A stretch of DNA of 64,000 bases from contig JANSXA010000013.1 of the NCBI GenBank assembly GCA_024743175.1, positions 1-64,000 on the forward strand, read 5' to 3'. Below the pieces are notes generated by a model that searched no databases, had not been told where the DNA came from, and was given only the letters and a program-made list of their open reading frames with translations. Source of the stretch: Pseudomonadaceae bacterium (GTDB lineage Bacteria; Pseudomonadota; Gammaproteobacteria; Pseudomonadales; Azotimanducaceae). Positions 13,100 to 46,023 of the stretch are shown piece by piece; position 1 is the stretch's first letter, and the number at the start of each line of letters is the position of its first letter. The position numbers and the translations under genes were made by a program.

Positions 13100-13239
13100 T
13101 GTGACCAGTCTCCTTGCGTTTGTATCGAGAGTTCAATGGTGTGAAGTTGATGGTTGCACGATGCTTTTTGCAAAGCGCATGCAACGCTCGAATTCACGCC
13201 AGATACTAGCAGGGACCGAGGTCATAGCGAAACATCCGT

Positions 13240-13263: not shown

Positions 13264-13304
13264 TTGCAGGATGCTCTCGCTTGTTCCAGGCAGAGTTTAG
13301 ACTG

Positions 13305-13970
13305 TCATCCGCCGGCAGGAATCTGCATTAGCAATGCCTGGATTTCTCCTTTGCGCCCGCTGTCCGCCAGCGCGCGACCAGGCCGGGCTGGTGCTTTCAT
13401 CGCCTGTTCCAGATGCGCTCTTGCTGCATCGAATTCTCCTTCGTCGAATAGAAACTGTCCCATGAAATAATTGCTGTCGATGCCGTCAGGGTTGATGGTC
13501 AAAGCTTTTTTAAGATGGGCTTTGGCCTTTTTATCGCTGCCAAACGCGATTGGCCATCCAGGGACCTGGTGGTACAGAGTGCCGAGGCTGGTATGGGCTG
13601 AACCCTGCAATGCATCAGGGTCTATCTCCAGCGCGCTTTGCAGACTCGTGCGAGCTTCTTTAACCAGGCCAAGTGCACCCAGGCCACCTTTTTCACCCGC
13701 CAGTGAACTCAGCACAATACCTTTCCAGATCAGGATTTCCGGAACCGCAGGTTCTGTCTGCGTGATCTGCCTCGCGTATTCGGCAAGTTCGGACAGCGCC
13801 TCCTGCCGCGGTGTACCCTCGAGCTGGTAGGTGGCATGAGCCCAGTTCTTTTGCAGATAGTCCAGATTGTTTTTCGAGCTTGCACTATCCGCCAGTGTTG
13901 TCACGGCGAACAGCAGGCTGGCAGCGAATAACAGGCTTGATGACAGCGCTTTCTTAAGTGGATAAGTCAT
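13305..13970 (-). CDS. Secreted TPR-repeat protein
   Basis: A 221-residue protein with a Sec signal peptide (hydrophobic segment ending at TTLADS) and tandem TPR-like helices from about residue 100, for example the ALEIDPDALQGSAHTSLGTLYHQ region and NPDGIDSNYFMGQFLFDEGEFDAARAHLEQ unit (only the pattern is diagnostic). The start at 13970 is set by AGGAG nine bases upstream; the in-frame ATG at 14006 overlaps the SDR gene end. It is likely a periplasmic scaffold. It is the last gene of the hemolysin-like/adenylase/diiron/SDR cassette, 35 bases after the SDR gene. Function unknown. Confidence 0.8.
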   Translation of the reverse strand: MTYPLKKALSSSLLFAASLLFAVTTLADSASSKNNLDYLQKNWAHATYQLEGTPRQEALSELAEYARQITQTEPAVPEILIWKGIVLSSLAGEKGGLGALGLVKEARTSLQSALEIDPDALQGSAHTSLGTLYHQVPGWPIAFGSDKKAKAHLKKALTINPDGIDSNYFMGQFLFDEGEFDAARAHLEQAMKAPARPGRALADSGRKGEIQALLMQIPAGG

Positions 13971-14005
13971 AGAGTTTTCTCCTCGTTTGCTTCGATAGGA
14001 TTGCA

Positions 14006-14797
14006 TCAGGTTGTCCTGGCGAATTTTTCAATGGTGGCTAGTTTTTTCTCCAGGGCGCGATCGACAACCCCGGGCATTATCTGGTTAACACGCACAAACA
14101 GCCGCTCGGGCCAGCCCAGGTAAGTGCTCTTTGATTTCTGTTCGATGGACTTGAGAATTCTTTGTGCGACGTACTCTGGGGTGTCGCTGGCGTTGCCTAA
14201 CGCGGTATTGAGTTGGTTGGCAGCTGCGCTGTTCATTGCGGTGCTTGTTGTGCGTGGGGCGAAGTAGATCACGTCGATGGGTTTGTTTTTGACTTCCCTG
14301 CGTAATGCTTCGGTGAAACCGCGCAGGCCGAATTTTGACGCGCAGTATGCGGTGTAAGCCGGGTGGCCAATGGTGCCAAACACTGAACCCACGTTCACAA
14401 TCATGCCGTGAGGTTTTTTGCTGAGGTGCGGCAGCAACAGACGTGTCAGTTGCATCGGCGCCAGCAGATTAAGTTGTACCATATTGGTTAATGTAGCTGC
14501 TTCGGTATTCTCCAGCAGTGCAAACTGATTGGCACCGGACAGGTTGATCAGGGTATCAATCCCCTTTTGTGCAGCTGTTTGCGCCAGATTGTCCAGGTCA
14601 GCAGGCAGCGTTAGGTCCGCAAGAGCTGTGGTAACAATACTTTGAGCAGGCAGATTGTCCGCCAGCTGCTGCAGTTTGTCTCCTGACCGTGCACTGAGTA
14701 TCAACGTGTGACCTGCGTCTGCCAACGCCAACGCCAGTGCCTGACCTATTCCACCTGTTGCCCCGGTCAGCAGGATTACGCGTTGATTAAGCGGCAT
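14006..14797 (-). CDS. Short-chain dehydrogenase/reductase in the hemolysin-like cassette
   Basis: A 263-residue classical SDR. The NAD(P) motif TGATGGIGQALA is at the N terminus, NLSG follows the fourth strand, and the catalytic triad is read as Ser in GSVFG with YTAYCASK (Tyr-x3-Lys). The C-terminal part (KSTYLGWPERLFVRVNQIMP) is the extended, membrane-associating type seen in lipid-metabolising SDRs. The ATG at 14797 is preferred; it overlaps the diiron gene by 11 bases. Context suggests it reduces or oxidises a fatty-acid-derived intermediate made by the two upstream enzymes; that is inference. Confidence 0.87.
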   Translation of the reverse strand: MPLNQRVILLTGATGGIGQALALALADAGHTLILSARSGDKLQQLADNLPAQSIVTTALADLTLPADLDNLAQTAAQKGIDTLINLSGANQFALLENTEAATLTNMVQLNLLAPMQLTRLLLPHLSKKPHGMIVNVGSVFGTIGHPAYTAYCASKFGLRGFTEALRREVKNKPIDVIYFAPRTTSTAMNSAAANQLNTALGNASDTPEYVAQRILKSIEQKSKSTYLGWPERLFVRVNQIMPGVVDRALEKKLATIEKFARTT

Positions 14798-15461
14798 GTG
14801 CTGTAGTCTCGCTATGCAGCCGGGGCACTGAGCGCAGCACGTTGCCATAAAGGACATAAACACGTTTCGCAACGTGGATGACATGCTGCATATCGGCGGT
14901 TGTCAGACCGTCGAGCAGCTGCTTGAAAAAATCAACATGTTCGATGTCTAAAGCGCCGTGGCTACGCAGGTAGGTGAATGCTTTGTCAGGCAGTTTCAAA
15001 GCCTGCGCAATCAGCTCGGCCGTGCTGCTGGCCAGTGATGTGCTGGTGCCCTCCAGAACATGCACCATACCAAGAAAGCCGATCGGGTTGACTGTTGTGA
15101 TGTAGTCGCGCACATAAGCCAGCATCACCTCTGTGGCAAAATTGGGTTCGCTGGCGGCAATGCGTTCTGCGTCTGCGCCACAGATTTTGAGATCATTGAG
15201 GATCCATTGTTCGTGGCCAATTTCCTCATCGATGTACTCTTTGAACGCGCTGATCAGGTGCATCTGGCTCGGATGGATACGACTTGCGGTGGCCATCATC
15301 AGCGGCACAGTAAAGCGCACGTGATGGTAAGCGTTGGTAAGAAACGCATGGTACATCTCGAGCGTGACACGGCCATGTGCCACATCTTCGATAATGGGGG
15401 CAGCAAGCAGATCAAGCTGTTCTGCTTCGGTGGCTTGCAGGAGGGTTTCGTAGTGGCTCAT
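14787..15461 (-). CDS. Heme-oxygenase-like diiron oxidase (HDO fold; TenA/PqqC-like)
   Basis: A 224-residue all-helical protein of the iron-containing redox enzyme group, the fold that includes UndA, which turns fatty acids into terminal alkenes. Candidate iron ligands are spread as in HDOs: YHHVRF, the EEIGHEQW helix (Glu-x-x-His), HVLEG, and GALDIEHVDFF (Asp-x-Glu-His). The start shares one base with the upstream adenylating enzyme stop (TGATG), so the two are translationally coupled. An acyl chain activated or handled by that enzyme may be the substrate. It is often auto-annotated as a TenA regulator, but no thiaminase residues stand out. The fold is well supported; the reaction is inferred. 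Confidence 0.82.
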   Translation of the reverse strand: MSHYETLLQATEAEQLDLLAAPIIEDVAHGRVTLEMYHAFLTNAYHHVRFTVPLMMATASRIHPSQMHLISAFKEYIDEEIGHEQWILNDLKICGADAERIAASEPNFATEVMLAYVRDYITTVNPIGFLGMVHVLEGTSTSLASSTAELIAQALKLPDKAFTYLRSHGALDIEHVDFFKQLLDGLTTADMQHVIHVAKRVYVLYGNVLRSVPRLHSETTAHAA

Positions 15462-16909
15462 CAGAGGGAGACTCCAAGTTGTTCAGGTTGGGTCATAAAG
15501 TTGAACAGTTCCTGCCAGGCTTGTCGGCGCACGCGCCCGTTGCTGGTCAGTCCGTTGTAGTGGTGCATGTCAGCCGCAGTGACACGATGCCAGGTGCCGA
15601 TTTGTGCGTAGTCGGGTAATCGCTGATTGGCTGCACTGACCGCTGCGTCAAGTTCAGCATCTGTCGGTTCGCCTCTCGGTAGAAGGAGCGCAGTGTTGGT
15701 CTCGGCAGCTTCGCCAAACACAGCGGCATGGCTGATACACAGTTCATTCTGCAATTCGCTTTCAACCCATTCCGGTGAGACGTTGCGTCCATAAGCAGTA
15801 ATGAAGGTGTTTTTCAGGCGTCCATAAACAGTCAGGTAGCCGTCGACATCTATTGCAACACGGTCGCCGGTGGCAACCTTGGTGCAGGTATCCAGATCGC
15901 CGATCACGCCCAGCATTCGTGGACGCGTAACAATCAGCTCTTCGTTTTCCACTGAAGCTTCGACATGGGGCAGCAATCTGCCAACGCTGCCGACTTTTTG
16001 TGCCATGGGTGTATTAAGTGTGATCACGCTGCCGCATTCTGTTAGCCCGTATCCTTCGTAAACGGGAATGTTCTGCTGCGCAGCCCGATGCAGAAGTTCC
16101 GGAGTCACACGACCGCCGCCCACGGCAACAAGTTTAAAGTGTTTGAAGCTCACCAGACCAAATTCAGCTGAAGCGGTGATCGCAAGCAGCAGTGCCGGCA
16201 CCACAATGATGCTGTCCGGTCCAAATGTTTCGATCCCCTTGACGAATTGACCCACGTCCACCTGGCTGCTGCCTTGAACGCCAATGTCAGCCAGATCGGG
16301 CAAATATATAGTGCTGCCGTTGAGCAGGTTGGCAAACAGACCGGCGGTGTTCTCAAGCAGCAGTGTCAGGGGTAACACACACAGGTGCTGCTGTATTGCC
16401 TGGTCCTTAAGCGACTGATGCAGGCTGTTAGCTGTTTGCAGCAGCGTTTGTGCGCTCAGACAGACACCTTTGGGTTGACCCGTACTGCCGGATGTAAAAG
16501 TCACCAGTGCAGTCCCTGCGGGCAACTTCACATCTTCAGCATCAGGTCTGCGCTCAATGTTGAAACGATTGAAATTGACCAATTTGCCTGCCTCTGCCTT
16601 TGATGCACTTTCAAGCAGGCTGATCATGACCTCAGCACCGGAGGCTTTTAAGGTGTGGCTGCGCTGGGCGGTGCTGAAAAATGAAGGTACAGGTACAGCC
16701 ACTCTGTCAGATTCCAGCAGAGCGATGTCCAGTGCAGCCCAATCGAAGCCGTTGGGCAGGTCAAAAGCGACCCGGCTGACATCGAGCTCGTCCAGTTTGT
16801 TGATCCAGCTGGTTACTGCTTGTTTGAGATCAATCAGCGACCAGGTGTCATGCCCGTCGCTGAGGCACGCGCGAGCGGGCACATGTGCAAGTAGTATCTC
16901 TTTACGCAT
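15461..16909 (-). CDS. AMP-binding acyl-CoA synthetase-like enzyme with a Lys-to-Arg change in the last core motif
   Basis: A 482-residue ANL-superfamily adenylating enzyme. The P-loop is TFTSGSTGQPKGV, the aromatic/adenine motif is YEGYGLTECG, and the hinge region is GDRVAIDVDGYLTVYGRLKNTF, though the family's usual aspartate-rich motif is shortened. The final core motif, normally NGK with the catalytic lysine, reads NGRVRR. The enzyme may therefore adenylate poorly, or use another residue. The ATG at 16909 overlaps the hemolysin-like gene by eight bases; a longer reading from 17188 would run through that gene. It probably activates a fatty acid for the diiron protein and SDR downstream. Confidence 0.85.
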   Translation of the reverse strand: MRKEILLAHVPARACLSDGHDTWSLIDLKQAVTSWINKLDELDVSRVAFDLPNGFDWAALDIALLESDRVAVPVPSFFSTAQRSHTLKASGAEVMISLLESASKAEAGKLVNFNRFNIERRPDAEDVKLPAGTALVTFTSGSTGQPKGVCLSAQTLLQTANSLHQSLKDQAIQQHLCVLPLTLLLENTAGLFANLLNGSTIYLPDLADIGVQGSSQVDVGQFVKGIETFGPDSIIVVPALLLAITASAEFGLVSFKHFKLVAVGGGRVTPELLHRAAQQNIPVYEGYGLTECGSVITLNTPMAQKVGSVGRLLPHVEASVENEELIVTRPRMLGVIGDLDTCTKVATGDRVAIDVDGYLTVYGRLKNTFITAYGRNVSPEWVESELQNELCISHAAVFGEAAETNTALLLPRGEPTDAELDAAVSAANQRLPDYAQIGTWHRVTAADMHHYNGLTSNGRVRRQAWQELFNFMTQPEQLGVSL

Positions 16910-17465
16910 AGATTCTGTCCGCCTGATTGACCGCTTTGTGGGGTTGCCCCAGAAGTACGGTGGGCGAATGTTCGTAATAGCTGCCCCAGCCGCGTTGCAG
17001 GTTTTCTGGAAGCTGCTGCAGAGATGCTTTGCCCAGGATATGCGGGGCGATTCCCTTACGCTCGAAAAACGCTGCCAGTTCGCACGTTGCGGTACACACA
17101 AGTAATTCTGTCTGTAGAGACAGAAAATCCGCCAGACAGGGTAACAACTGACAAACCAGGCGCGGTGTGCGCACCGAAAAATGCACAAACTCGACAGTTT
17201 TTTCGGTACTGAGAAGGTCGGGAAAGGTGTCCTGCAGGCGTCGGTTTAAGTTATCGACATAGTAGTTGCTGAAGAAATCTTCTCGGCGCCGGTTCAGGCC
17301 GAATGCGGCATCCAGCTCACCACAGTTGTTATAAATGGCATACAGTTCGTCACTGTCATCGCTGATGATTGCGCCGAAGTGCTGTTCAAACTGTGCCGCG
17401 ATAAAGGCAAAAGCCTCCTGGCGCTTTTCACTTTCAACCTTTGTGATGGACCACTGGTTTTTCAT
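16902..17465 (-). CDS. Thermostable-hemolysin family protein (GNAT/autoinducer-synthase-like fold)
   Basis: A 187-residue protein of the thermostable hemolysin family. Typical segments are AAFGLN, a block with FFSNYYVDNL and EFVHFSVRTPR, and the C-terminal AFFERKGIAPHILGKAS. The family name comes from Vibrio delta-VPH. Its residue pattern recalls acyl-homoserine-lactone synthases and GNAT acyltransferases, so an acyl-transfer role is plausible. It has no signal peptide. It is the first gene of the cassette with adenylase, diiron protein, SDR and TPR protein, and is divergent from an ECF sigma gene. That the protein is a toxin is not supported by anything seen here. Confidence 0.82.
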   Translation of the reverse strand: MKNQWSITKVESEKRQEAFAFIAAQFEQHFGAIISDDSDELYAIYNNCGELDAAFGLNRRREDFFSNYYVDNLNRRLQDTFPDLLSTEKTVEFVHFSVRTPRLVCQLLPCLADFLSLQTELLVCTATCELAAFFERKGIAPHILGKASLQQLPENLQRGWGSYYEHSPTVLLGQPHKAVNQADRIYA

Positions 17466-17520
17466 TTAAGTTCTTCTATTGTTGGCCTAGTCTTGGGGAG
17501 ATAGAGAGCACCTCGGATAA

Positions 17521-17554
17521 AAATCAATCGAGATAATGTTTTTCCGATTGATTT
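17521..17554. promoter_or_regulatory. 10-bp inverted repeat between hemolysin-like cassette and ECF sigma gene
   Basis: AAATCAATCG (17521-17530) and CGATTGATTT (17545-17554) are perfect inverted repeats around a 14-base AT-rich spacer. They lie in the 134-base gap between divergent starts at 17465 and 17600. The geometry fits a dimeric regulator site covering both promoters. The regulator is unknown. Confidence 0.5.
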
Positions 17555-17599
17555 ATGTGATTCAGACCCTCAACTGTTACAAGCCATCGAGTTACGCGT

Positions 17600-18220
17600 G
17601 TGCATAAAGAAGATTTAAAACTCGCCAAACAGTTGCTGAGCGGCAACGAACAGGTTTTCGAAACCTTTTTCAACCTGTACTACGTGCGGGTTTATCGGTT
17701 CTGCCTGCGTCGAGTAAATGAGAATGAAGCAGAGGACATAGCTTTGGAAACCATGCGACAAGCCATGCGCAGGATTGAGACATACCGCGGCGAAGCGAGT
17801 TTGCTGGCGTGGGTTTATCAGGTCGCCCGGAGTCAGGTCAGTGCGTTTTATAAACGTGCGCAGAAACACAAAGACCTCTTGCTGATTGAAGACGATCTGC
17901 AGGTGCAGGCGCAGGTGGAAGCCATGGGTTCCGAATTGTCCAATGACCCTCAAGCTGTTAAAGAAAAGCAGCAGCACGCCAATCTTATCCACTTCATGCT
18001 TGATTCACTGCCAGGAGACTATGGTCGAATTTTGGAATGGAAGTATGTGGAAGGCTGGTCGGTGGACGAAATAGCAGAGCGACTTGATTCCACCCCGACT
18101 GCGATCCAGTCGATGCTTGCCCGCGCGCGCACCGCGTTCCGCAATGCTTATGAACAAATCAGCCAAGGTGCCGATCAGTCTAAAGTTGTGCCCTTTGGCT
18201 CCGGGGGAGTGCAGACATGA
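17600..18220 (+). CDS. ECF-type RNA polymerase sigma factor
   Basis: A 206-residue extracytoplasmic-function sigma factor. Region 2 covers about residues 20-90, with FFNLYYVRVYRFCLRRV and the -10 recognition stretch around EDIALETMRQAM. Region 4 is the C-terminal helix-turn-helix WSVDEIAERLDSTPTAIQSMLARARTAFR region. It starts with GTG. Its stop overlaps the next start (ATGA), coupling it to a FecR-type regulator that presumably holds it inactive until a signal arrives from the outer-membrane receptor. Targets probably include the adjacent receptor gene, and the divergent cassette is possible. Confidence 0.92.
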   Translation: MHKEDLKLAKQLLSGNEQVFETFFNLYYVRVYRFCLRRVNENEAEDIALETMRQAMRRIETYRGEASLLAWVYQVARSQVSAFYKRAQKHKDLLLIEDDLQVQAQVEAMGSELSNDPQAVKEKQQHANLIHFMLDSLPGDYGRILEWKYVEGWSVDEIAERLDSTPTAIQSMLARARTAFRNAYEQISQGADQSKVVPFGSGGVQT

Positions 18221-19188
18221 GCGATTCTCGACACACCGATAACGAGCAGGCCGCTGATGCGGAACTTGAACAGATTCTCAACGCAGCGGGGCCGCGTCCA
18301 CAACCGCCGCAACAGGTCAGTCAACGCGCCTATGATTCGCTGAAGAGTGAATGGTCGTCGCTGGTGGCGGAAAAGAAACAGCGCCGACGCCGTCGCCTGC
18401 TGAGCGTTGCCGCCAGCATTGGTGTGCTGGTGGGCTCAGTCTGGATGTTCAACGTTCAGCAGCAGGTGCCGACCTGGGAGGTTGCTGTCACCAGCGGCTC
18501 GTTCGAGTTGAATTCGACACGATATGATGCGCCACAAGAAATGACGCTGGCAGAAGGGGATTACCTCTACAGTCAGGAACCGGTGCGTTTTGAGCGCACT
18601 GACGGTGCTGACCTGCGCTTAGGTTATGCAACTGCGTTGTCGATAGCCAACGGCACTCAGGTAAATCTGCAACAGGGCTCTGTCTACATCGATACAAAAG
18701 GCACTACAGATTTTCTGGTTCGTACTCCCATTGCTGACGTACGCGACATAGGCACGCGCTTCATGGTCAGCCTTGAATCCAGCACGCTCCAGGTTGCGGT
18801 GCGGGAAGGGGCGGCGGAAGTGACCTCTGAATTTGGTGCTCAGATAGCCAAGGTCGATGGCGCAAAGGCACAGGTTGTAACCGTTGATAACACGGGTCAG
18901 ACGCTGCAGTTGGAGTCATTGGCAGATTCACGCTGGGAATGGATTCATGCAGCGTCCGCTGGCTATCAGTCGCGATCTTTAACCGCATTGGTCAACCAGA
19001 TAGGCCACGATCTTGGTAAAACAGTTCGCTTTGCTGATCATGGCGTGGAAGTCAGTGTGGCTAACGAACAGGTCGATGGAGATTTGCGTAATATGTCGCC
19101 CAGACAGGCGCTTGAGATTATTACCCGCAGCACCGGTCTGGTCTGGCGAGAAGCGCAAGAAGAGATCATCTTAGACTTTCAGCGTTGA
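18217..19188 (+). CDS. FecR-family anti-sigma / signal-transduction protein
   Basis: A 323-residue inner-membrane protein. The cytoplasmic N-terminal part ends in a basic run (KKQRRRRRLL), followed by one membrane helix (SVAASIGVLVGSVWMF, about 67-83) and a periplasmic FecR domain. That domain carries VRTPIADVRDIGTRFMV and LQVAVREGAAEV. The C-terminal DUF4974-like or STN-like portion is LEIITRSTGLVW. It should pass the signal from the TonB receptor encoded 26 bases downstream to the sigma factor encoded upstream. The domain order is standard for the family. Confidence 0.92.
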   Translation: MSDSRHTDNEQAADAELEQILNAAGPRPQPPQQVSQRAYDSLKSEWSSLVAEKKQRRRRRLLSVAASIGVLVGSVWMFNVQQQVPTWEVAVTSGSFELNSTRYDAPQEMTLAEGDYLYSQEPVRFERTDGADLRLGYATALSIANGTQVNLQQGSVYIDTKGTTDFLVRTPIADVRDIGTRFMVSLESSTLQVAVREGAAEVTSEFGAQIAKVDGAKAQVVTVDNTGQTLQLESLADSRWEWIHAASAGYQSRSLTALVNQIGHDLGKTVRFADHGVEVSVANEQVDGDLRNMSPRQALEIITRSTGLVWREAQEEIILDFQR

Positions 19189-35740: not shown

Positions 35741-36418
35741 ATGAAAAACGAAGTTGGTGTGGCGACCGCCCCCATGAATGATGCCGCAATTGCTTCTCAG
35801 CACGCGGTGCTTCGTAATACTTATCGTTTGTTATCAATGACTTTGGCCTTCAGCGCGTTGGTCGCTGCTGGCACAGTTGCGCTGAATCTACCTTATCCAG
35901 GCATCATTGTTGTCCTGGTGGGTTATTTTGGTCTGCTGTTCCTGACCAGCTACCTGCGCAACAGCGCCTGGGGTCTGGTCAGTGTTTTTGCGTTGACTGG
36001 CTTTATGGGCTACACGATAGGCCCGATCATTAACGCGTATCTGGGTCTGTCGAACGGTCCGTCGCTGGTCACAGCCGCCATGGCGACAACCGGCGTTGTT
36101 TTCCTTGGTCTGTCTGCCTACGCTCGATCGTCCAAAGCGCCGGATATGATGCGCTTCGGAACGTTCCTGTTTGTCGGTATTCTGGTGGCATTCTGCATGG
36201 GTCTGGCGGCTGTTTTCTTCCAGATGCCACTGCTGTCAGTTGCGGTCTCCGGGCTGTTTGTCCTGCTGATGAGTGGTCTCATCATGTGGCAGACCCAGGA
36301 TATAATTCGTGGTGGTGAAACCAATTACATCATGGCAACCGTGACGCTGTTTGTTGCAATTTACAATCTGTTCACCAGCTTGTTGCACATTTTCGGCTTT
36401 CTTGGTGACGACGGCTGA
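35741..36418 (+). CDS. Bax inhibitor-1 / YccA family membrane protein
   Basis: A 225-residue polytopic protein with seven predicted membrane segments after a soluble 30-residue N terminus. GYTIGPIINAYL and the C-terminal DIIRGGETNYIMATVTLFVAIYNLF region are BI-1/YccA signatures; the family includes ion-leak channels and the FtsH modulator YccA. GGAG precedes the start, and a GGGGT/ACCCC hairpin lies in the leader. Its stop shares one base with the purK start, so it is the first gene of yccA-like-purK-purE-sbtA-sbtB. Confidence 0.9.
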   Translation: MKNEVGVATAPMNDAAIASQHAVLRNTYRLLSMTLAFSALVAAGTVALNLPYPGIIVVLVGYFGLLFLTSYLRNSAWGLVSVFALTGFMGYTIGPIINAYLGLSNGPSLVTAAMATTGVVFLGLSAYARSSKAPDMMRFGTFLFVGILVAFCMGLAAVFFQMPLLSVAVSGLFVLLMSGLIMWQTQDIIRGGETNYIMATVTLFVAIYNLFTSLLHIFGFLGDDG

Positions 36419-37551
36419 TGAGTCTGCGCCTGGGCATTTACGGCGCCGGTCAGCTCGGCGCCTACTTGTGCCAGGCCGCTCGAACCCTGGGCATGACCAC
36501 TTCGGTGGTCGCGCCTACTGACGACAGCCCGGCTAATGAACACGCCGACCATGTGATTGTTGCACCACTGGACGATCTCGCCGCCTCCAAGACACTGATC
36601 GATAGCGTTGATCTGATCACGTTCGAACTCGAAGACATCGCCTCACCGGTGTTAGATCTACTGGCCGAGGCAGTTGGACAGGGTAACGTGCAGGTTTTCC
36701 CAGAAGTTGAACATCTGCGCCTGTTGCAGAATAAATGCTCACAAAAACGCTGGTTTGTTGAACACTCGCTGCCGACCGCACAGTTTTTAGATTGCCCGGC
36801 CGATACAGATATTGCCGCGCTGGCGGAACAGTTTGGCCTGCCGTTTGTGCAGAAAACACACCGCGGCGGCTATGATGGGCGTGGTGTGCAGGTTATACGC
36901 GACGCTGATGGGGGTGATGAGTTGTGGCCAACTGCGACAATCATCGAAGAGTTTATTGAGCCCCGCCGCGAACTCGCCGTTCTGGTGGCACGCAGTCCAG
37001 CAGGTGAAGAAGCAGTTTACCCGGTAGTCGAGATGGACTTTAACCAGCAAGGACATATCCTCAGCCACGTTCTGTCGCCTGCTTCCTTGCCCGTTGACAT
37101 CTCCACTCAGGCTCAGGATATCGCTCTGCAGTTTATACGCCACCTCGACGGTACTGGTCTGTTTGCGGTTGAGATGTTTCTGCGCAACGATAAAGAGCTG
37201 TTGATCAACGAAGTTGCACCAAGGGTGCACAACTCGGGCCATCTGACAATTGAAGCGCACCAGACCTCCCAGTACGAACAGCACCTGCGTGCAATCGCTG
37301 GACTTCCGCTGGGAGGCACTGAGCAGAAACAACCTTCAGCCATGGTTAATATCCTTTACGCTGATGCGATTGAAAGCGCCTGTGCCAGCGGGCGCGGGGT
37401 CATAGCGGTGGGAAACAATACAAATGTGCACTGGTATGGTAAGAAGGGCTCTTCGCTGCTGCGGAAGATGGGCCACATCACCAGCACAGCAGATTCCGTA
37501 GAAGAAGCTCAGTCAAACGTTGATGCCGCATTGGGTGCATTGGCTTCTTAA
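36418..37551 (+). CDS. purK: N5-carboxyaminoimidazole ribonucleotide synthetase
   Basis: A 377-residue ATP-grasp enzyme of purine synthesis. It makes N5-CAIR from aminoimidazole ribonucleotide, ATP and bicarbonate. The N-terminal [16 protein letters not shown] matches the PurK GGGQLG region, FELEDI is the usual FEx[13 protein letters not shown] is the ATP-grasp glycine loop, and [12 protein letters not shown] holds metal ligands. It comes before purE here and overlaps the preceding gene by one base. Because bicarbonate is a substrate, the transporter genes 0.5 kb downstream are likely functionally linked. Confidence 0.95.
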
Positions 37552-37580
37552 GCAGTTTTATCCGTCGAGCAGGGGGTGGG

Positions 37581-38066
37581 GTGACGAAAGTCAGTATTAT
37601 AATGGGCAGTGACTCAGATCTGCCGATTATGAATGCAGCGCGTGATGTGTTGCAGGAACTTGGTGTGGCTTTTGAGATGGCCATAGTCAGTGCGCATCGC
37701 ACACCCCAGCGCATGTATGAGTACGCGCTGGCAGCAGAAGCAAACGGGCTTTCCGTGATTATCGCTGGCGCCGGCGGCGCGGCACATTTACCGGGGATGG
37801 TGGCTTCTCTGACAACCGTGCCGGTGATCGGAGTACCGGTGAGCGCAACCAAACTCAATGGCCAGGATTCCCTGCTCTCAATTGTGCAGATGCCCGCGGG
37901 AATCCCTGTTGCAACGGTGGCCATTGATAACGCACGCAATGCCGGCATTCTGGCTGCGCAGATTATTGGTGTTTCGGATGCAAAGGTACGCAGCGCCATA
38001 AAAGCGTTACGTGCAACGATGCAGCAACAGGTGGAGAGCAAAGCCGATAAGCTTGCCGGGCGTTAG
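37581..38066 (+). CDS. purE: N5-CAIR mutase
   Basis: A 161-residue class I PurE that converts N5-CAIR to CAIR. The signatures [20 protein letters not shown] and [15 protein letters not shown] are complete. It starts with GTG, preceded by an AGGGGG run. It lies 29 bases after purK, and the SbtA start comes only two bases after its stop. The product is cytoplasmic and forms octamers in relatives. Confidence 0.95.
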
Positions 38067-38068
38067 TT

Positions 38069-39058
38069 TTGGACGCACTGTTTCTCTCTAACATTACCTC
38101 TCCGCCACTGCTGTTTTTCATGCTCGGCGCAGTTGCTACTTTGGTACGCAGCGATCTTGAGATACCTGAACAGGTGGCTAAATTCCTTTCGCTGTACCTG
38201 CTGTTTGCCATTGGCTTTAAAGGCGGCGTGGCGCTGGCTGAAAGCCCGCTGGACTTCGAGGTGGCAAAGGGGCTGCTCACCGCCTTGTTAATGGCCTCCC
38301 TGGTTCCAGTATATGTGTTCTATCTGTTGCGCCGAAAAATGTCGACGGCGGATGCTGCGGCTACCGCGGCAACGTATGGATCGATCAGCGCCGTAACGTT
38401 TGTCACCTGTACCAGTTATCTTGATGCCAACGGAGTGGCCTGGAGTGGTTATCTGGTTGCGGCAATGGCGCTCATGGAATCACCGGCGATCATTATCGGC
38501 CTGCTCCTGTACCGCATTTATCAGTCAAAAGAAGAGCGTGATCAGCCCGAACTCATGGCGCCTGGGGAATTGATCCGCGAGTCTTTTCTGAATGGGTCTG
38601 TATTTCTGATCATGGGCAGCCTGATCATCGGATGGATATCAGGGCCAGTAGGCAAAGCGCAGATCAGCCCGCTGGTGAATGACCTGTTCATCGGCGTTCT
38701 GTGTCTGTTTCTGCTGGACATGGGCATTGTTGCCATGCGTCGCCTGCAGGATATGCGCAGCGCAGAGCGTGGTTTGAGCAGCCTCGGTATGGTTTCGTGG
38801 GGTATTGCTTTGCCGCTGTTGAATGCTGCTATCGCAGTGGGCCTGGCTGTGTTGCTGGATCTACCGGAAGGTGATGCGGTGCTGCTGATCGTATTGTGTG
38901 CCAGTGCGTCTTACATCGCCGTGCCTGCAGCCATGCGGCTGGCGTTACCGGAGGCGAACCCCAGCGTCTATCTTGCTCTTTCGCTGGCGGTTACCTTTCC
39001 CTTCAATCTGCTGGTCGGTATTCCCCTCTACCATCAGGCGGTAAACTGGCTGGCTTAA
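38069..39058 (+). CDS. sbtA: SbtA-family sodium-dependent bicarbonate transporter
   Basis: A 329-residue membrane protein with about ten predicted helices in two repeats. SPPLLFFMLGAVA begins the first; YGSISAVTFVTCTSYLD is the conserved half-helix region of the first repeat and ASASYIAVPAAMRLALPEANPS that of the second. The central cytoplasmic loop after KEERDQ is the variable part. SbtA was defined in cyanobacteria as a high-affinity sodium/bicarbonate symporter. The start is TTG, two bases after purE. Clustering with purK, a bicarbonate user, suggests supply for purine carboxylation. No carboxysome or RuBisCO gene is nearby. Confidence 0.9.
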   Translation: MDALFLSNITSPPLLFFMLGAVATLVRSDLEIPEQVAKFLSLYLLFAIGFKGGVALAESPLDFEVAKGLLTALLMASLVPVYVFYLLRRKMSTADAAATAATYGSISAVTFVTCTSYLDANGVAWSGYLVAAMALMESPAIIIGLLLYRIYQSKEERDQPELMAPGELIRESFLNGSVFLIMGSLIIGWISGPVGKAQISPLVNDLFIGVLCLFLLDMGIVAMRRLQDMRSAERGLSSLGMVSWGIALPLLNAAIAVGLAVLLDLPEGDAVLLIVLCASASYIAVPAAMRLALPEANPSVYLALSLAVTFPFNLLVGIPLYHQAVNWLA

Positions 39059-39077
39059 CTCACCCGGGTGTGTGCTT

Positions 39078-39374
39078 ATGAAACCGTGTAAACGGATAGA
39101 AATTGTAATTGAACAACCCCTGGCCCAACGCATGGCTAAACTTTTGGCAACGCTGAATGCCCCAGGTTATACGTTCATTGATCATGCTGGCGGTAGCGGT
39201 GATCGCGGTCTGCGCCGCGCAGATGAACCTACAGGCACCTCAACCAACTGCGTTTTTGTCATTGCCTGTGATGATGCGGAGATTACCGATCAGATTGTTA
39301 ACGGTGTACGCAGTATGCTCACTCGCTCGGGTGGTATCTGTCTGGTGAGCGACGCTCAGTGGGTGAGGCACTGA
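39078..39374 (+). CDS. sbtB: SbtB-like PII-type regulatory protein
   Basis: A 98-residue PII-like protein directly after sbtA. The first strand is RIEIVIEQPLAQRMAKLL; a glycine-rich T-loop-like stretch (HAGGSGDRGLRRADEPTG) and the strand NCVFVIACDD follow, ending in SRSGGICLVSD-like PII core (here LTRSGGICLVSD). SbtB proteins plug SbtA according to adenylate or cAMP state. A C-terminal cysteine-loop seen in some SbtBs is absent. The ATG at 39078 is chosen over a GTG two codons earlier. The assignment rests on both fold and position. Confidence 0.82.
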   Translation: MKPCKRIEIVIEQPLAQRMAKLLATLNAPGYTFIDHAGGSGDRGLRRADEPTGTSTNCVFVIACDDAEITDQIVNGVRSMLTRSGGICLVSDAQWVRH

Positions 39375-39494
39375 GAAAAATGTGATCGGGCCTGTGTCCG
39401 TCGATAAAACCGAATCCCTTACGCGGCCTGATCGACTTGTTGGTAGATCAGCTCTCACGCTATCTTCTGTACTGAAAACCCCAGGAGAAGCGCG

Positions 39495-39863
39495 ATGGAA
39501 GTTCAGATAGAAACCCAGAACATCGACATTCCCGCAAACAGCAGCAGCTCGCTGGCGCAGCGAGTTCGCAAGGCCATGAGTCATGTCGGCAGTCATATTA
39601 TCCGTCTGCATTTGAGCCTGCGGGACGTCAATGGCGCGAAAGGTGGTCGTGATAAAATCTGTACCCTGCGAGCGACTCTGGCCTCCGGAGGCGAAGTTGT
39701 TGTGGTGGATCGCGACAGGCAGGTTCGTAAAGCGCTGTTCAATGTTCTGCGTCGCAGCCGGGGTGTGATCAACCGGGAGCTGAAACGCAGACGGCAGAAA
39801 AGTCGTCGCCAGATTGAGAGTGCTGACGAACTATCGACACGCCTGTGGCTCGAGTCGGCATAG
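39495..39863 (+). CDS. HPF/RaiA family ribosome-associated protein
   Basis: A 122-residue S30AE-family protein. RVRKAMSHVGSHIIRLHLSLRD followed by NGAKGGRDKICTLRATL and VVVDRDRQVRKALFNVLRRS is the standard strand-helix pattern. The C terminus is a strongly basic helix (NRELKRRRQKSRRQ), fitting RNA contact. AGGAG precedes the start. It is separated from sbtB by 120 bases. It probably binds idle ribosomes or rRNA; stress induction is expected for the family but no promoter was identified. Confidence 0.82.
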   Translation: MEVQIETQNIDIPANSSSSLAQRVRKAMSHVGSHIIRLHLSLRDVNGAKGGRDKICTLRATLASGGEVVVVDRDRQVRKALFNVLRRSRGVINRELKRRRQKSRRQIESADELSTRLWLESA

Positions 39864-39872
39864 CTGCGGTTA

Positions 39873-41000
39873 TTAAGCCTGCTGGTTAAGCGTATTCTGC
39901 GCCGACGCGAAGCGGGTAAGGTTTAATTCCTGACGCACAGCCTGTCCCACGTCTGCCTGCATGTCGTCTACCGGGATGCCGATTGAGTCTGCGATGCGGG
40001 TCATGCGCTGGAAATTCGCAGCAACACCGGCGGCGTCGACCAGAACATCGGGTCCTGCAATGTCCAGTAATGCCTGGCGATGCTGCGCAAGTTCATCGTC
40101 CCGCAGAGCAAAGCTTTGTGCAAAGCGGACCAGTTCCGGTCCGTAGGTAATCCCAACAGCAGCACTATCGGTGTCTCCGTTGATGGCGTTGAGGTCTATG
40201 TCAGTATCAGTTGTTGAGGCGCTCACACGGAGCATGGTGGCGTGTGCGCTGGTTCAGTAGAAACACTCATTGATGGCTGACACCCTGCCGGCGATCAGTT
40301 CAGTCTGCATGCGGTTGATGGATCGATTCGGGTCGCCGACAAAATTGGCCATGCTGGCAAAGGAAATGTACTGCGCGTCGCTGAGCATGCGCCAGTCCCG
40401 CAGGGCATCGGGTACCAGCGTGAGGGCTCTGACAACGTTAGCCGTGCGCCCATCGGACCATAAGTCCGCCTCGGCACCTACGGCACCCTCTGGCGGTACT
40501 GTTGGCACAAAGCCGATATCGTCACTGAGGATTTCTGGCTGGTACTGTGATGGTTCGCCAGTCTCAAAGGCAGGCAGAGGCTCCAGCGGCAATCCCAGTG
40601 CGCGGTGGAACTCATCGATGCTGAACATTGCAACAACAATCCCGGTCAGCTCAACGTAAGCATTTTTTGACAGCCCGGCAGCATCATTCTGCTCAATGTA
40701 GCGAGCGGTGATTCGGGTCTGGTCAGTGATGATCCGATGGATGGCATCTACCGCAATGGGGTCGAGCACACTCTGAGTTGTCTCGTGTTGGCCTGCAACC
40801 TGATAAGGTGAAAGGGCCTGTTTGCGTTCCACACAGTAGGCGCAGTGAAATGCCTGACGGGATTCTGCCGCAATCGCAACACGCTGTGCGCCATTCCACC
40901 AGCTTCCGGGTTTGCGCAGACGTTGCCAGTATTCCTGATGCGCCTTGCGGATGTCGGACCGTATTGGGTAGGGTGAGTCGGAATAATCGAAAGTTTCCAT
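39873..41000 (-). CDS. Candidate selenoprotein: AhpD/CMD-like peroxidase with in-frame TGA at the second active-site cysteine
   Basis: Read straight through the TGA at 40256-40254, this frame gives 375 residues of a two-part AhpD/carboxymuconolactone-decarboxylase-type protein. Before the TGA come HCAYCVERKQAL (Cys53, Cys56), helices typical of CMD proteins (YVELTGIVVAMFSIDEFHRAL), and INECFY. After it come TSAHATML and a long helical tail. With Sec or Cys at 249 the site reads C246-x-x-U249-x-x-x-H253, exactly the AhpD CxxCxxxH motif, in which the second cysteine is the peroxide-reactive one. The frame after the TGA stays open for 126 codons. A stem-loop follows at once. Alternatives are a nonsense mutation (TGC/TGT to TGA) or a sequencing error. 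Conventional gene calling would give two pieces, 40254-41000 and 39873-40235. Confidence 0.65.
40219..40249 (-). promoter_or_regulatory. SECIS-like stem-loop just downstream of the in-frame TGA
   Basis: On the minus strand, GCGC+ACACG (40249-40241) pairs with CGTGT+GCGC (40229-40219), nine base pairs with a two-base bulge (GA at 40224-40223) and an 11-base loop. It begins five bases after the TGA; the loop starts 13 bases after it. Bacterial SECIS elements sit here with a bulge and a G near the loop start. If the top G-C pair opens, the loop starts with G. The spacing is slightly shorter than in E. coli fdhF, so this is a candidate only. Confidence 0.45.
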
Positions 41001-41088
41001 TTGTGGGCCCTTCTATTATTAGCTTATCTTTGCAAGAGTCTAACAGGCCAGTTCCTCATCTGGCGTTGAAATTTATTAAGGTGTTGAG

Positions 41089-42099
41089 ATGTCTTTACCC
41101 AGAATTGCCATCAACGGCTTCGGCCGTATCGGCCGAACTATCACTCGAATTGCCAAACTGCGGCGGCACTATGATGTCATTGCGGTGAACGATCTTGCAG
41201 ATCCGGATGATCTGGCTTATGCATTCAAGTACGACAGCATCCATGGCAAATACGCCGGTGAAGTTGTTTTGAACGGCAATGAAATGCGCATCGATGGCGA
41301 CCCCTTTATTGTTCTGCAGGAACCTGATCCACGTAAATTACCCTGGGAGGAATTAGGCGTTGATTATGTTGTTGAAAGCAGCGGTCGATTCCGGCGTCTT
41401 GAAGAGTTGAACTGGCATCTGGAAGCGGGGGCTAAGCGCGTGCTGTTAACCGTCCCCTGCAAAGACCCGCTGGATGCCACCATTGTCATGGGTGTCAACG
41501 ATCATGTTGTGACCAAGGACACCCGCATCATCAGCAATGCCAGCTGTACAACAAACTGTGCTGCGCCGGTGGCTAAGGTACTGCATGACAGCTTCGGGAT
41601 AAAAAGAGGTCTGCTGACAACTGTGCATGCATACACATCAGATCAGCGTTTAATTGATGCCCCGCATAAAGATAAACGCCGTTCGCGCAGCGCTGCGACC
41701 AATATTGTACCGACATCAACTGGCGCGGCCCGCGCGATTGGCCTGGTAGTGCCTGAGCTGGCAGGGCGGCTGGATGGCATGGCCATGCGGGTGCCGGTTC
41801 CTGACGGCAGCGTAATTGATCTAACGGTAGAGCTGGAACGCGATGTTTCAGTAACTGAGATCAATGAAGCCATGCAGAAAGCTGCTGAGGGCCCGATGCG
41901 CGGTATCCTGTCGTACTGTGAGGACCCGATTGTGTCCGGCGATGTGATTGGAGACAGCCACTCCAGCGTGTTTGACGCAGGTCTGACCCAGGTGATTGAT
42001 CGACGCATGGCCAAAGTCATCAGTTGGTATGACAATGAATGGGGTTACAGCACCCGGGTAGAGGAACTCATAGACCGGGTGGCGCAACTTGATGCTTAA
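41089..42099 (+). CDS. gap: Glyceraldehyde-3-phosphate dehydrogenase, type I
   Basis: A 336-residue GAPDH. The NAD-binding NGFGRIGR, VNDL after the second strand (favouring NAD), the catalytic SNASCTTNCAAP with Cys near 150, the histidine in LLTTVHAYTSDQ, and WYDNEWGYS near the end are all present. The phosphate-binding loop STGAARAIG also matches GAPDH and not erythrose-4-phosphate dehydrogenase. It is monocistronic: divergent from the candidate selenoprotein by 88 bases and followed by a hairpin. It serves central carbon metabolism. Confidence 0.95.
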   Translation: MSLPRIAINGFGRIGRTITRIAKLRRHYDVIAVNDLADPDDLAYAFKYDSIHGKYAGEVVLNGNEMRIDGDPFIVLQEPDPRKLPWEELGVDYVVESSGRFRRLEELNWHLEAGAKRVLLTVPCKDPLDATIVMGVNDHVVTKDTRIISNASCTTNCAAPVAKVLHDSFGIKRGLLTTVHAYTSDQRLIDAPHKDKRRSRSAATNIVPTSTGAARAIGLVVPELAGRLDGMAMRVPVPDGSVIDLTVELERDVSVTEINEAMQKAAEGPMRGILSYCEDPIVSGDVIGDSHSSVFDAGLTQVIDRRMAKVISWYDNEWGYSTRVEELIDRVAQLDA

Positions 42100-42100
42100 A

Positions 42101-42123
42101 CGAGGCTGGCACTGTCAGCCTCG
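42101..42123. terminator. Hairpin between convergent gap and MFS genes
   Basis: CGAGGCTG (42101-42108) pairs perfectly with CAGCCTCG (42116-42123) across a 7-base loop, filling the 26-base space between the two stops. It lacks a U-run, so it may terminate weakly in both directions. Confidence 0.6.
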
Positions 42124-42125
42124 AG

Positions 42126-43631
42126 TCAGGCTTCCTTCGCGGCCTTCAAAGCTATTTCCTGTTGTATCTCTCGGAGCCGATCTTCGGTCAGTGGATAGCT
42201 CCACAGGATAGGCAATGCAACGAACTTGAAGATTGCTGGCACAATTGAGTACAAACAAGCCAGCCATAGCAGTGAGTACCAGGAGTTCGGATCTGCGATA
42301 GGATCTGCCAGCGAGTTAAAGCCGACAATGGTTGCAGTTGTGGTGCCAACAACCAGGCCCAACGCGTACGCCAGTTTGCGCGTCATCGTCCAGATCGAGA
42401 AATAAGCGCCGCCCTGGCTTTTACCGGTTTGCGCGCTGTCCAGGTCAATCACGTCTGCCGCCATGGCATAAGGTAACGCGCTTAACGCGCCGATAGAACT
42501 GCCTTTCAAGACCATGACACCGATGAAAAATGCAAATTTCCCGGTGGGAATGCCTTCAAACTGACTCTGCATACCCGCCAGCCAGCTGTCTGGCAGAAAG
42601 GACAGAATAGTGCCGAGCTCAAAAGCGTCAAACCAGCCTTGTGGTGCGATAGCAATCAATGGAATGAAACAGGACCACAACGCGTACCAGAAGATGGCCA
42701 CCATGGTGGCTCGGTGTTTACCGATTTTTGCAGACAATTTGAACCACAGGGGTATCGCCACAATCTGCGATATGAAATAGGGTGCCAGGTAAAAGCCGTA
42801 TAGATCACCGGCCAGCAGCACATGCTTGACGAAGAAGAAGCTCAACGAATTGGTCATGGCTGAACCAATTGTTGAGAAAAGAAAGATGATAACAAGCTTG
42901 CGGTACGGCTCGTTTGCCCACACGTAACGGAAACTTTCGCGAATCGGCAGGCGACGTTTTGTGGTTTCGCGGGCTGGGTATTCCGGTACAACCATCAACA
43001 TATTCAATACCAGGAACGGCATGACAATGGCCAGGGCGATGGTCAGAAAATAAACATTGTCTGTGGGTTTGGTGTAGCCCCAGAAAACGATGATGGCCGG
43101 CGTCATGGCGCCAATCAACGAACCCGCTACGGTGAAAGCCTCTTTCCAGCTCATCACCAGGGTGCGCTCATTGTAATCCTGGGCCAGTTCAGCGCCCCAG
43201 GCTGAATAGGGCACATCTTTGATCGTGGCACCGACGTACATGAGCACCAGCACCCCGAGCAGATAGGGGTACCCTGAGTTCATGGTGAAACCCAGAATGG
43301 TGATATCGCCGAACTCAATGGGTGGAATCCACAGCAGCCAGACGCCGGCAATGAAGATTGGTGTGCCGATCAGGATAAAAGGTTTGCGACGCCCCCAGCG
43401 CGTGCGTATGCGGTCAGAATAGAAGCCAACCACCGGGTCGGTAACCCCATCAAACACCCGTGACAGCGCCAGCATCAGACCGACAAATCCAAGACTCAAC
43501 CCGAACCCGGCTGAATCGGCGTAAACGGGTGTCAGATAGACTGCCAGTGGCAATGAAACCATCGACAATGGCATCGACGGCGCGCCGTAAGATGCCAGCT
43601 TGAACATGTTCAGCGGTTTATGCTGTGACAA
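42126..43631 (-). CDS. GPH-family (MelB-like) MFS transporter
   Basis: A 501-residue 12-helix carrier. DGVTDPVVGFYSDRIRTRWGRRKPF carries the family residues (DxxTDP, RRKP) after helix 2, and YSAWGAELAQDYNER is the matching loop 4-5 signature. The start is TTG with GGAGG about seven bases upstream. Relatives import sugars, uronates or sulfoquinovose; nothing adjacent defines the cargo. It is a distant paralogue of the carrier at 31335-32786. The C-terminal tail after SYPLTEDRLREIQQE is cytoplasmic and helical. Confidence 0.87.
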   Translation of the reverse strand: MSQHKPLNMFKLASYGAPSMPLSMVSLPLAVYLTPVYADSAGFGLSLGFVGLMLALSRVFDGVTDPVVGFYSDRIRTRWGRRKPFILIGTPIFIAGVWLLWIPPIEFGDITILGFTMNSGYPYLLGVLVLMYVGATIKDVPYSAWGAELAQDYNERTLVMSWKEAFTVAGSLIGAMTPAIIVFWGYTKPTDNVYFLTIALAIVMPFLVLNMLMVVPEYPARETTKRRLPIRESFRYVWANEPYRKLVIIFLFSTIGSAMTNSLSFFFVKHVLLAGDLYGFYLAPYFISQIVAIPLWFKLSAKIGKHRATMVAIFWYALWSCFIPLIAIAPQGWFDAFELGTILSFLPDSWLAGMQSQFEGIPTGKFAFFIGVMVLKGSSIGALSALPYAMAADVIDLDSAQTGKSQGGAYFSIWTMTRKLAYALGLVVGTTTATIVGFNSLADPIADPNSWYSLLWLACLYSIVPAIFKFVALPILWSYPLTEDRLREIQQEIALKAAKEA

Positions 43632-43743
43632 ACAAAATCCTCCCCTCCCCAGGAATGAGGTGTGAAGAACATACCTGGGTTGGGAGAATTGATCTAGTCT
43701 TAGTGTGTCACTACTTGGCGGTTAATAAACCTGTTTGTGGCTT

Positions 43744-44130
43744 TTAAGAACAAACGGCGCTGACCGGTGTAACTACCGGTGGTGCAGCCATGAATTCTCC
43801 CAGCGCGGGGAACAGAGCAGTCACTTCAGGATCCGTACCGTGTGCCTTCCTAGCATCTTCATTGGCATAACGTTCCATCATGAAGTACTGGCCTTCGGGG
43901 CCACGATAGGGTGCATACAGCAGCACACCTTTCTCTACACGATTGACGGTATCCGCCAGCGCGGTGACAGCGGCCTCGAAGCCCGCTTCGCTACCGGATT
44001 TGACGGTGAAAGAAGCCACATAGCCCACCTCATTTTCATCACACTGGGCCAGTACCGGTGTGGATATAAACAGACCGCAGGCGATAACGCCCAGTGCAGC
44101 CAGGCGAGCAGGTTGTCTTGTTCGACGCAT
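43744..44130 (-). CDS. Secreted ABM-domain (antibiotic biosynthesis monooxygenase-like) protein
   Basis: A 128-residue protein with a signal peptide (LAALGVIACGLFISTPVLAQ) and one ferredoxin-like ABM domain. That domain shows VGYVASFTVKSGSEAGFEAAVTAL-type strand-helix and the GQYFMMERYANEDARKAH segment. ABM proteins act as dimers as quinol monooxygenases or heme/aldehyde-related enzymes; an exported one is less common. The start at 44130 follows GGGAGAAG. A longer reading from 44172 would lose the signal. Two cysteines (QCDENE and the C-terminal VCS) could form a disulfide outside the cytoplasm. Function unassigned. Confidence 0.82.
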   Translation of the reverse strand: MRRTRQPARLAALGVIACGLFISTPVLAQCDENEVGYVASFTVKSGSEAGFEAAVTALADTVNRVEKGVLLYAPYRGPEGQYFMMERYANEDARKAHGTDPEVTALFPALGEFMAAPPVVTPVSAVCS

Positions 44131-44205
44131 GATTTCTTCTCCCGATAGAAAATATAAAAGTGATCGCACCATAATCTGTGCAGCGGGAATCTACAATTCA
44201 AAATG

Positions 44206-46023
44206 TCAGCCTTCGATCTGCTCGCTGAGTTGTTCCCAGCGCGTATAAGCAGCTTCAACAGCAGCTTGTGCCTCCGCCAGTTCAGCCAGCACGGCTTTGA
44301 CCTTATCAGCGTCACCCTGGTAAAAATCTGCAGCAACCACCTGATCCTGGAGCTTCTGCTGCGCAAGCTCGAGCTTTTCAATGGTTTCCGGCAGACGGTC
44401 CAGCTCGCGCTGGTCTTTATAGCTCAGTTTATTCTGCTTGCGCGTAGCCTTGTTCGTTGCGCTCGTTGTGCCAGTGGCTTTTTGTTGATCTTTCCCCGGA
44501 TCTTTTCTTGGATCTTTGTGCTGAGCTCCAGTTCTGCGTTGGCGCTGCCAGTCACTGTAACCGCCAACGTATTCAGTAAGATTGTCATCTTCGAAAGCGA
44601 TAACGCTGGTGGCTACAGCATCGATGAATTTTCTGTCGTGGCTGACCAGTAAAACGGTGCCGTCGTAGTCCGCCAGAAGCTCTTCGAACAACTCCAGGGT
44701 TTCCATATCGAGATCGTTAGTCGGTTCGTCAAGCACCAGCAGATTGGCAGATTGCGTAAACAGCTTGGCCATTAACAGTCTGTTTTTTTCGCCACCTGAA
44801 AGTTTTGCCACGGGCATATTGAGGTAGCTGGAGGGAAAGAGAAAATCAGCCAGGTAACCCACGATGTGTTTGGTGTTCTTTCCTACCGTGACCTGATCAG
44901 AGCCAGGACTGACATTGTCGCGCACGGTCTCCTGCATATTCAGAATGCTGCGCTGCTGATCAAAAAATGCAACCTGCAGTTTGGTACCGCGTTCAACCGT
45001 ACCTTGCTGTGGTTGTAGGTCGCCCAGCAGCAATCCCAACAATGTACTCTTGCCGGAGCCGTTAGGACCGACAATGGCGATCCGGTCGCCACGGGTGATG
45101 CGGGTTGAAAAGTTTCGAATCAGCGGGGTGTCGTAACCGAAACTGACGTCTTCCATAACCGCGACGATCTGTCCGGATTTCTCTCCGCTGTCGAGTTTGA
45201 GTTTAGCGTTGCCCTGTTTGTCGACACGCTGTTTGCGCGTCTGGCGCAGCGCTTCGAGTCGGCGCACTCGTCCTTCATTGCGCGTGCGTCGCGCTTTGAT
45301 ACCCTGTCTGATCCAGACCTCTTCATTGGCTAAGTGCTGGTCAAACTTACGATTGGCATCAGCCTCTTCGGCTTCTGCTTTTGCCCGTCCGACCAGATAG
45401 TCCGCGTAGTTGCCCGGGTAGCTTGTCAGCTGACCGCGTTCCAGTTCAACAATTCGGGTGGCCACATCATCAATCATGGCACGGTCGTGACTGATCAGAA
45501 TCATGGTGGTGTCTGCAGCCAGGATATGCGCCTGCAGGGTTTCAATGGACTCAATATCGAGGTGGTTGGTGGGTTCATCAAGCAATAACAGGTCGGGTTC
45601 ACTGACCAATGCCTGACCAAGCATCGCGCGACGCCGAATGCCGCCGGAGCTGTCACCCATGGTTTGATCTCGCGGCAACTTTAGCAGGTCGAGTATCCGT
45701 TCGACCTTGTAATCGGTTTGCCAGCTTTGACTGTCTGCATCACTCTCAGGCAGGCCCTGTGCAATGACGTCGAACAATGAAAGATCGGCCGCTTCCGGCA
45801 CCTCCTGCTGGAGATACGCTATGTTTAACTGGGGTGCCAGGCGCAATTCGCCATCGTCAAGCCCGGCTTCACCATTGATGACTTTCAACAGGGTAGATTT
45901 GCCGGAACCGTTGCGGCCAATCAACGCAACGCGTTCGCCGCGATCGAGAATAAAGTTAGCGTGGTGCAGCAGCGCCTGTTCACCAAAAGCGAGTTCGGCC
46001 TCTGTTAGTCGGAGGATGTTCAA
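44206..46023 (-). CDS. uup: ABC-F family ATPase Uup
   Basis: A 605-residue cytoplasmic tandem ABC protein. The first cassette has GRNGSGKST, a signature SSGGIRRR and LLLLDEPTNHLD. The second has GPNGSGKST, LSGGEKNR and LVLDEPTNDLD. Between them is the charged ABC-F linker (RQGIKARRTRNEGRVRRLEALR), and the C terminus is the Uup coiled coil after a lysine-rich stretch. Uup acts on ribosomes and branched DNA and limits transposon excision in E. coli. The TTG at 46023 fits the usual Uup start; an open frame to 46428 has no family similarity. Confidence 0.92.
   Translation of the reverse strand: MNILRLTEAELAFGEQALLHHANFILDRGERVALIGRNGSGKSTLLKVINGEAGLDDGELRLAPQLNIAYLQQEVPEAADLSLFDVIAQGLPESDADSQSWQTDYKVERILDLLKLPRDQTMGDSSGGIRRRAMLGQALVSEPDLLLLDEPTNHLDIESIETLQAHILAADTTMILISHDRAMIDDVATRIVELERGQLTSYPGNYADYLVGRAKAEAEEADANRKFDQHLANEEVWIRQGIKARRTRNEGRVRRLEALRQTRKQRVDKQGNAKLKLDSGEKSGQIVAVMEDVSFGYDTPLIRNFSTRITRGDRIAIVGPNGSGKSTLLGLLLGDLQPQQGTVERGTKLQVAFFDQQRSILNMQETVRDNVSPGSDQVTVGKNTKHIVGYLADFLFPSSYLNMPVAKLSGGEKNRLLMAKLFTQSANLLVLDEPTNDLDMETLELFEELLADYDGTVLLVSHDRKFIDAVATSVIAFEDDNLTEYVGGYSDWQRQRRTGAQHKDPRKDPGKDQQKATGTTSATNKATRKQNKLSYKDQRELDRLPETIEKLELAQQKLQDQVVAADFYQGDADKVKAVLAELAEAQAAVEAAYTRWEQLSEQIEG

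Follow-up and report, generated by a model that had tools for sequence, protein, structure and literature searches.

The window analysed here, a 64,000-nucleotide stretch of DNA from a Pseudomonadaceae bacterium, carries on its minus strand at 39873..41000 what is almost certainly the gene for an AhpD-related selenoprotein of the NCBIfam family NF041238. This gene begins with an ATG at 41000, ends with a TAA at 39875-39873 and contains a single in-frame TGA at 40254..40256; a Shine-Dalgarno-like GAAGGG, read by eye, is located at 41013-41008, 7 nt 5' of the ATG. With the TGA read as selenocysteine (Sec, U) the product has 375 residues, comprising 248 residues, U249 and a further 126 residues, and the segment SAINECFYUTSAHATML surrounds the TGA. 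The ORF listing splits the gene into a 248 aa piece and a 120 aa piece, the latter starting from an internal ATG. An earlier note on this DNA had described the same frame with its TGA, open for 248 codons before and 126 codons after, and we confirmed these coordinates and lengths. It had also argued that a chance nonsense mutation would rarely leave so clean a frame downstream. The improbability of a nonsense mutation is upheld by the TGA being common to nearly all homologues (see below), while the clean flanking frame proves a weak argument, as the window contains five frames that are split by a TGA and have 90 codons or more on each side, the present gene counted among them. Taken alone, an open frame flanking a TGA is weak evidence for Sec; it is homology that carries the case, since 55 of the 56 aligned homologues hold a TGA at exactly the same codon.

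The read-through protein matches NF041238 (AhpD_rel_CFYUT, named "alkylhydroperoxidase-related (seleno)protein" in NCBIfam) with 447.5 bits, the cut-off being 175. This match is full-length, with residues 13-366 aligned to model positions 1-357 of 357, and the CFYUT motif is present as residues 246-250. Three distant members exceed the same cut-off as well, scoring 286.8, 385.7 and 400.3 bits. In the excerpted table of a 2026 review (PMC13188914) NF041238 appears as "AhpD-related protein (hypothetical protein 1, Sargasso Sea metagenome)" with a CxxU motif, and the entry is credited there to Zhang, Fomenko and Gladyshev 2005 (reference 59). That paper on the Sargasso Sea selenoproteome (PMC1088965), in its passages on hypothetical protein 1, reports four sequences with a SECIS-like stem-loop and takes the CXXU motif to suggest a redox function. 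The family was thus already in the literature, as were its Sec site and the presumed redox role, and the protein does not represent a new family. Of the earlier designation as a candidate new selenoprotein, the selenoprotein part is borne out by the sel genes, the TGA and the hairpin described below, and the novelty is lost to a family known since 2005. We put the probability that this gene encodes a selenoprotein belonging to NF041238 at roughly 95%.

Other models place the protein near AhpD. A carboxymuconolactone decarboxylase/AhpD core domain (Pfam PF02627, 25.6 bits, cut-off 23) covers residues 226-269 (40194..40325, minus strand), and no Pfam domain over cut-off is found in the N-terminal half. 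TIGR01926 aligns over residues 188-346 with 40.9 bits, under its cut-off of 81.8, and the NCBIfam AhpD model TIGR00777 gives 19.7 bits, under a cut-off of 191.95. The other AhpD-related NCBIfam models matched by the protein all stay under their cut-offs, and NF041047 is absent among its NCBIfam matches. Judged by the TIGR00777 score, the protein is a relative of AhpD and not AhpD itself.

The homologue alignment has 56 rows, namely loci L002-L031, L038, L039 and L041-L056 together with eight loci from a 293-genome sample of the order. Rows were picked by a motif pattern in which the Sec position could be U, C, S or A; L067 and L068, which failed this pattern at another position, were added via a pattern demanding U. 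Left out were the duplicate loci L061, L062, L065 and L066, the weak hit L040, the below-cut-off loci L070-L087, the full-length TGA matches G313:C30 and G112:C42, and the end fragments G010:C77 and G020:C39. Among the aligned rows from the search of near relatives, identity to the window protein ranges from 32 to 68%. Full-length relatives include a Gammaproteobacteria MAG (L038, 64% in the best segment) and the OM182 bacterium MED-G28 (L039, 60%); a literature search for OM182 together with selenocysteine found no paper. The earlier note had proposed aligning homologues at residue 249, and this alignment showed TGA in all but one of the 56 rows, the exception being L044 from genome G030 with Cys (TGC), and no unrelated residues. 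Residues E234, C246, Y248 and H253 are invariant (56/56). The active-site motif C246-F-Y-U249-T-S-A-H253 lies at 40242..40265 (minus strand), with U or C at 249 and E234 12 residues upstream of C246. An N-terminal CxxC, C53-A-Y-C56 (40833..40844, minus strand), has both Cys in 47 of 56 rows as counted by eye, and two of the nine rows without it, the frameshifted L045 and the truncated L056, are incomplete in that region.

The Cys-bearing L044 (G030:C41:9741-10823) is the sole Cys (CFYC) form of the family that was seen, and its genome also has Sec forms. In a tree of 53 rows, from which the broken or truncated L031, L045 and L056 were taken out, L044 sits on a long branch among Sec rows, its place being unsure; the simplest reading of this position is one Sec-to-Cys change. 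The same genome holds L045 (G030:C346:19191-20301), a copy divided over two frames that is probably an assembly frameshift or a decaying copy. Shorter AhpD-like relatives lacking the TGA, found as weak matches, are common outside the family and also occur within the same genomes. With regard to gene neighbourhood, none of the 25 largest neighbour clusters listed covers most of the close, window-like rows. In a distant subgroup, 12 loci (L023, L024, L025, L027, L028, L046, L047 and L049-L053) have a divergent gene for a cystathionine-gamma-synthase-like PLP enzyme, named by eye, upstream of the selenoprotein gene.

Downstream of the TGA there is a conserved hairpin, a putative bacterial SECIS element, at 40220..40234 (minus strand). 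It has a 5-bp stem with one G-U pair and a 5-nt loop, CGUGU; counted from the T of TGA, nucleotides 23-27 pair with 33-37, which leaves 24 nt between the TGA and the loop. All five stem pairs are present in 50 of the 55 TGA rows, as compared with a mean of 6.4 and a maximum of 14 of 55 in 1000 synonymous draws. When the helix is extended to eight pairs, pairing reaches 6.49 of 8, compared with 4.21 under the synonymous null (highest of 1000 draws, 4.78), and sliding the helix from -12 to +9 nt yields at most 4.49 of 8. The pairing excess is observed in both subsets, with 0.99 versus 0.60 in the 22 close rows and 0.98 versus 0.52 in the 33 distant rows. The Leu codon within the stem is CTC or CTT in 55/55 rows, whereas CTG is used most often for Leu in the remainder of these genes (480/1689), and the third base of the stem codon is paired in every row (46 C-G, 7 U-A and 2 U-G). 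A G within the first two loop positions is likewise found in 55/55 rows, at position 2 in the window gene.

The bacterial SECIS model in the excerpted part of PMC13188914 describes a stem of 4-16 bp, a loop of 3-9 nt, a G among the first two loop nucleotides, a distance of 16-37 nt from the UGA and an energy of -7.5 kcal/mol or lower. The conserved hairpin of the window gene agrees with the stem, loop, G and spacing values, but it is not the minimum-energy fold. Alone it reaches -4.5 kcal/mol, which is weak against -7.5. The minimum-energy fold of the 51 nt in the window gene is -12.0 kcal/mol and forms through a competing helix whose loop has 11 nt. In the ensemble of these 51 nt the conserved pairs have a probability of 0.0. 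Pairs of the competing helix are moderately above their null (0.79 versus 0.58 in close rows, 0.68 versus 0.54 in distant rows). Among the 55 TGA rows, -7.5 kcal/mol is reached by the local hairpin in 26 and by the whole 51 nt in 49, and four rows (L019, L043, L056 and L064) have no contiguous 4-pair stem. Folding of single sequences after the TGA is unremarkable (z from -0.90 to -1.81), and windowed folding relative to synonymous draws shows a modest dip at the TGA, with mean z of -0.73 to -0.89 versus -0.47 to 0.30 elsewhere. Rfam scans gave no match in the window at gathering thresholds, nor in the 501 bases around the TGA at E up to 1.

The earlier note had also suggested looking for selA, selB, selC (tRNA-Sec) and selD in the same genome, and all four are present over their family cut-offs. 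On contig C7, selA (518.4 bits, 276126-277424), selB (424.3 bits, 277463-279289) and tRNA-Sec (71.7 bits, 279356-279444; called tRNA-SeC with anticodon tca by ARAGORN) adjoin one another, and selD (270.9 bits, 290569-291483) is located about 11 kb further. We counted sel genes only when over the family cut-off, and did not count the weaker matches to the selB, selD and tRNA-Sec models that turn up in 14 of 14 control genomes. Phage-like genes, named by eye, lie between tRNA-Sec and selD in locus L057 (G000:C7:270000-289999, at 10515-18412), among them a tyrosine-integrase-like gene at 17156-18412 that was also named by eye. Given this placement, the tRNA-Sec gene may be an integration site.

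An association of the family with the Sec machinery is also observed in other genomes. In the order sample, NF041238 is over cut-off in 12 of 293 genomes and selA in 39 of 293, and all 12 carriers have selA; the chance of this is 5.9e-12 on the assumption of independent genomes, a figure that is overstated as many of the genomes are related. The NF041238 and selA scans covered 293 genomes each with agreeing handles, the genomes without a match being listed in part. On contig C321 of the relative G047 the family gene (366-1472) is followed by selA (1813-3195), selB (3237-5150) and tRNA-Sec (5243-5332). A TGA-bearing homologue is present in 30 of the 58 near-relative genomes searched, and among these 30 selB is over cut-off in 22 and tRNA-Sec in 20. 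As for the eight carriers without selB, G007 has tRNA-Sec over cut-off, G012 has selA over cut-off and G029 has a sub-cut-off piece of selA. In the remaining five carriers of the TGA gene, G010, G013, G015, G031 and G033, selA gave no match and neither selB nor tRNA-Sec exceeded its cut-off. Completeness is 58-73% for G013, G015 and G033, 96% for G010 (520 contigs) and 90% for G031 (390 contigs), and the absence of sel genes in these five is likely due to missing contigs.

Several other readings of the TGA were weighed against these results. If it had arisen by nonsense mutation or by a sequencing error, the gene being otherwise a usual Cys-type homologue of AhpD, then the Cys at 249 in L044, the number of window frames that carry a TGA with long open flanks and the occurrence of weakly matching, TGA-free AhpD-like relatives in the same genomes would all be accommodated. 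However, this would leave unexplained a TGA at the same codon in homologues with identity as low as 32%, from genomes of many species, as well as the intact frame past the TGA, the conserved hairpin and the sel genes. We rejected it on the shared TGA and regard it as extremely improbable.

The TGA could also be a genuine stop, with a functional 248-residue N-terminal product, a functional downstream product from the ATG at 40235, or both, and there is indeed an in-frame ATG past the TGA with six codons between. Such an arrangement would distribute the AhpD active site over two products, which is the ground on which we rejected it, yet E234, C246, Y248 and H253 are conserved together with residues of the tail and one NF041238 match spans both halves; we consider it very improbable. 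Finally, in regards to a genome-wide reassignment or readthrough of TGA as Trp or another residue, the in-frame TGA itself is all that speaks for it. The sole non-TGA row has Cys rather than Trp, the genome has the complete selA/selB/tRNA-Sec/selD set, and translation table 11 gives long open ORFs in the neighbourhood (36000-45000). The first two of these observations led us to reject this reading, to which we give hardly any credence. Read from these sequence comparisons, the TGA at codon 249 very probably encodes selenocysteine.

The placement of this selenocysteine is informative as to chemistry. In the pages of PMC3141380 on PA0269, the AhpD proton relay is given as Glu36, Cys48, Tyr50, Cys51 and His55, and that of M. 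tuberculosis AhpD as Glu118, Cys130, His132, Cys133 and His137. In the window protein E234, C246, Y248, U249 and H253 (E-x11-C-x-Y-U-x3-H) reproduce the PA0269 spacing exactly, and thus Sec sits at the second cysteine of AhpD. The earlier placement of the TGA at the second Cys of the AhpD CxxCxxxH motif is supported by C246, U249 and H253 of this pentad, and by analogy that position is plausibly the peroxide-reactive one. A profile of 14 family members searched against the PDB retrieved 9 distinct sequences at E of 0.01 or lower, which are AhpD-related, CMD-family or hypothetical proteins; the match to 6k40 has an E of 1.2e-12 and all matches fall within profile positions 153-341 of 368. An AlphaFold2 model built from three rows had a pLDDT of 32 and was useless.

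We infer that UGA 249 would be decoded as Sec by the SelA, SelB, tRNA-Sec and SelD of this genome, aided by the mRNA hairpin just downstream. E234, Y248 and H253 would then activate Sec249, which would attack a peroxide or disulfide, and C246 would resolve Sec249 through a selenenylsulfide. On the strength of these active-site residues we somewhat favour AhpD-type redox chemistry in which Sec is the reactive residue. A search of the window's own genome (rated 98.17% complete) gave no TIGR03137 match over cut-off for AhpC, which leaves a partnership of AhpC with AhpD unsupported. A peroxiredoxin-like frame with one in-frame TGA (...AYTGGUTIQC...) is present in this genome on the plus strand at G000:C8:94876-95214 (L088), has a sub-cut-off TIGR03137 score of 40.7 bits and is probably a Sec peroxiredoxin. 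A bolder proposal is that this family, with its nearly obligate Sec, acts without AhpC as a selenium-dependent reductase of hydroperoxides or disulfides that is complete in itself, in which the N-terminal CxxC (C53/C56) feeds electrons to C246/Sec249 within one chain. We think this unlikely, and if true the intra-chain relay could hold for only part of the family, as some members lack the CxxC.

The present gene adds one more member to a catalogued selenoprotein family, and the Sec codon had been read correctly from raw sequence. The enzymatic function of NF041238 is a guess in the excerpted literature, and with Sec used almost exclusively in this sample, the family is a reasonable one in which to study the advantage of Sec over Cys at an AhpD-type site. 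Compared with NF041238 itself, the full-length match, the CFYUT motif and the CxxU Sec site are alike and no difference was found, which makes the protein a member. With the other Sec-containing AhpD-like and CMD families in the excerpted part of PMC13188914 (TIGR01926, NF041047 and the PF02627 CMD-like proteins) it shares a CxxU in a CMD/AhpD core; however, it is below cut-off for the TIGR01926 AhpD-like model and has no match to NF041047, and in that part of the review these are kept as separate families. Relative to M. tuberculosis AhpD and P. aeruginosa PA0269, as described in the consulted pages of PMC3141380, the pentad is alike, with the Tyr and the spacing as in PA0269. In contrast to both, Sec here replaces the second Cys in a chain of 375 residues with an additional N-terminal half, and sequence similarity to PA0269 (2o4d) is remote only, at an E of 1.7e-4 by the 14-sequence profile.
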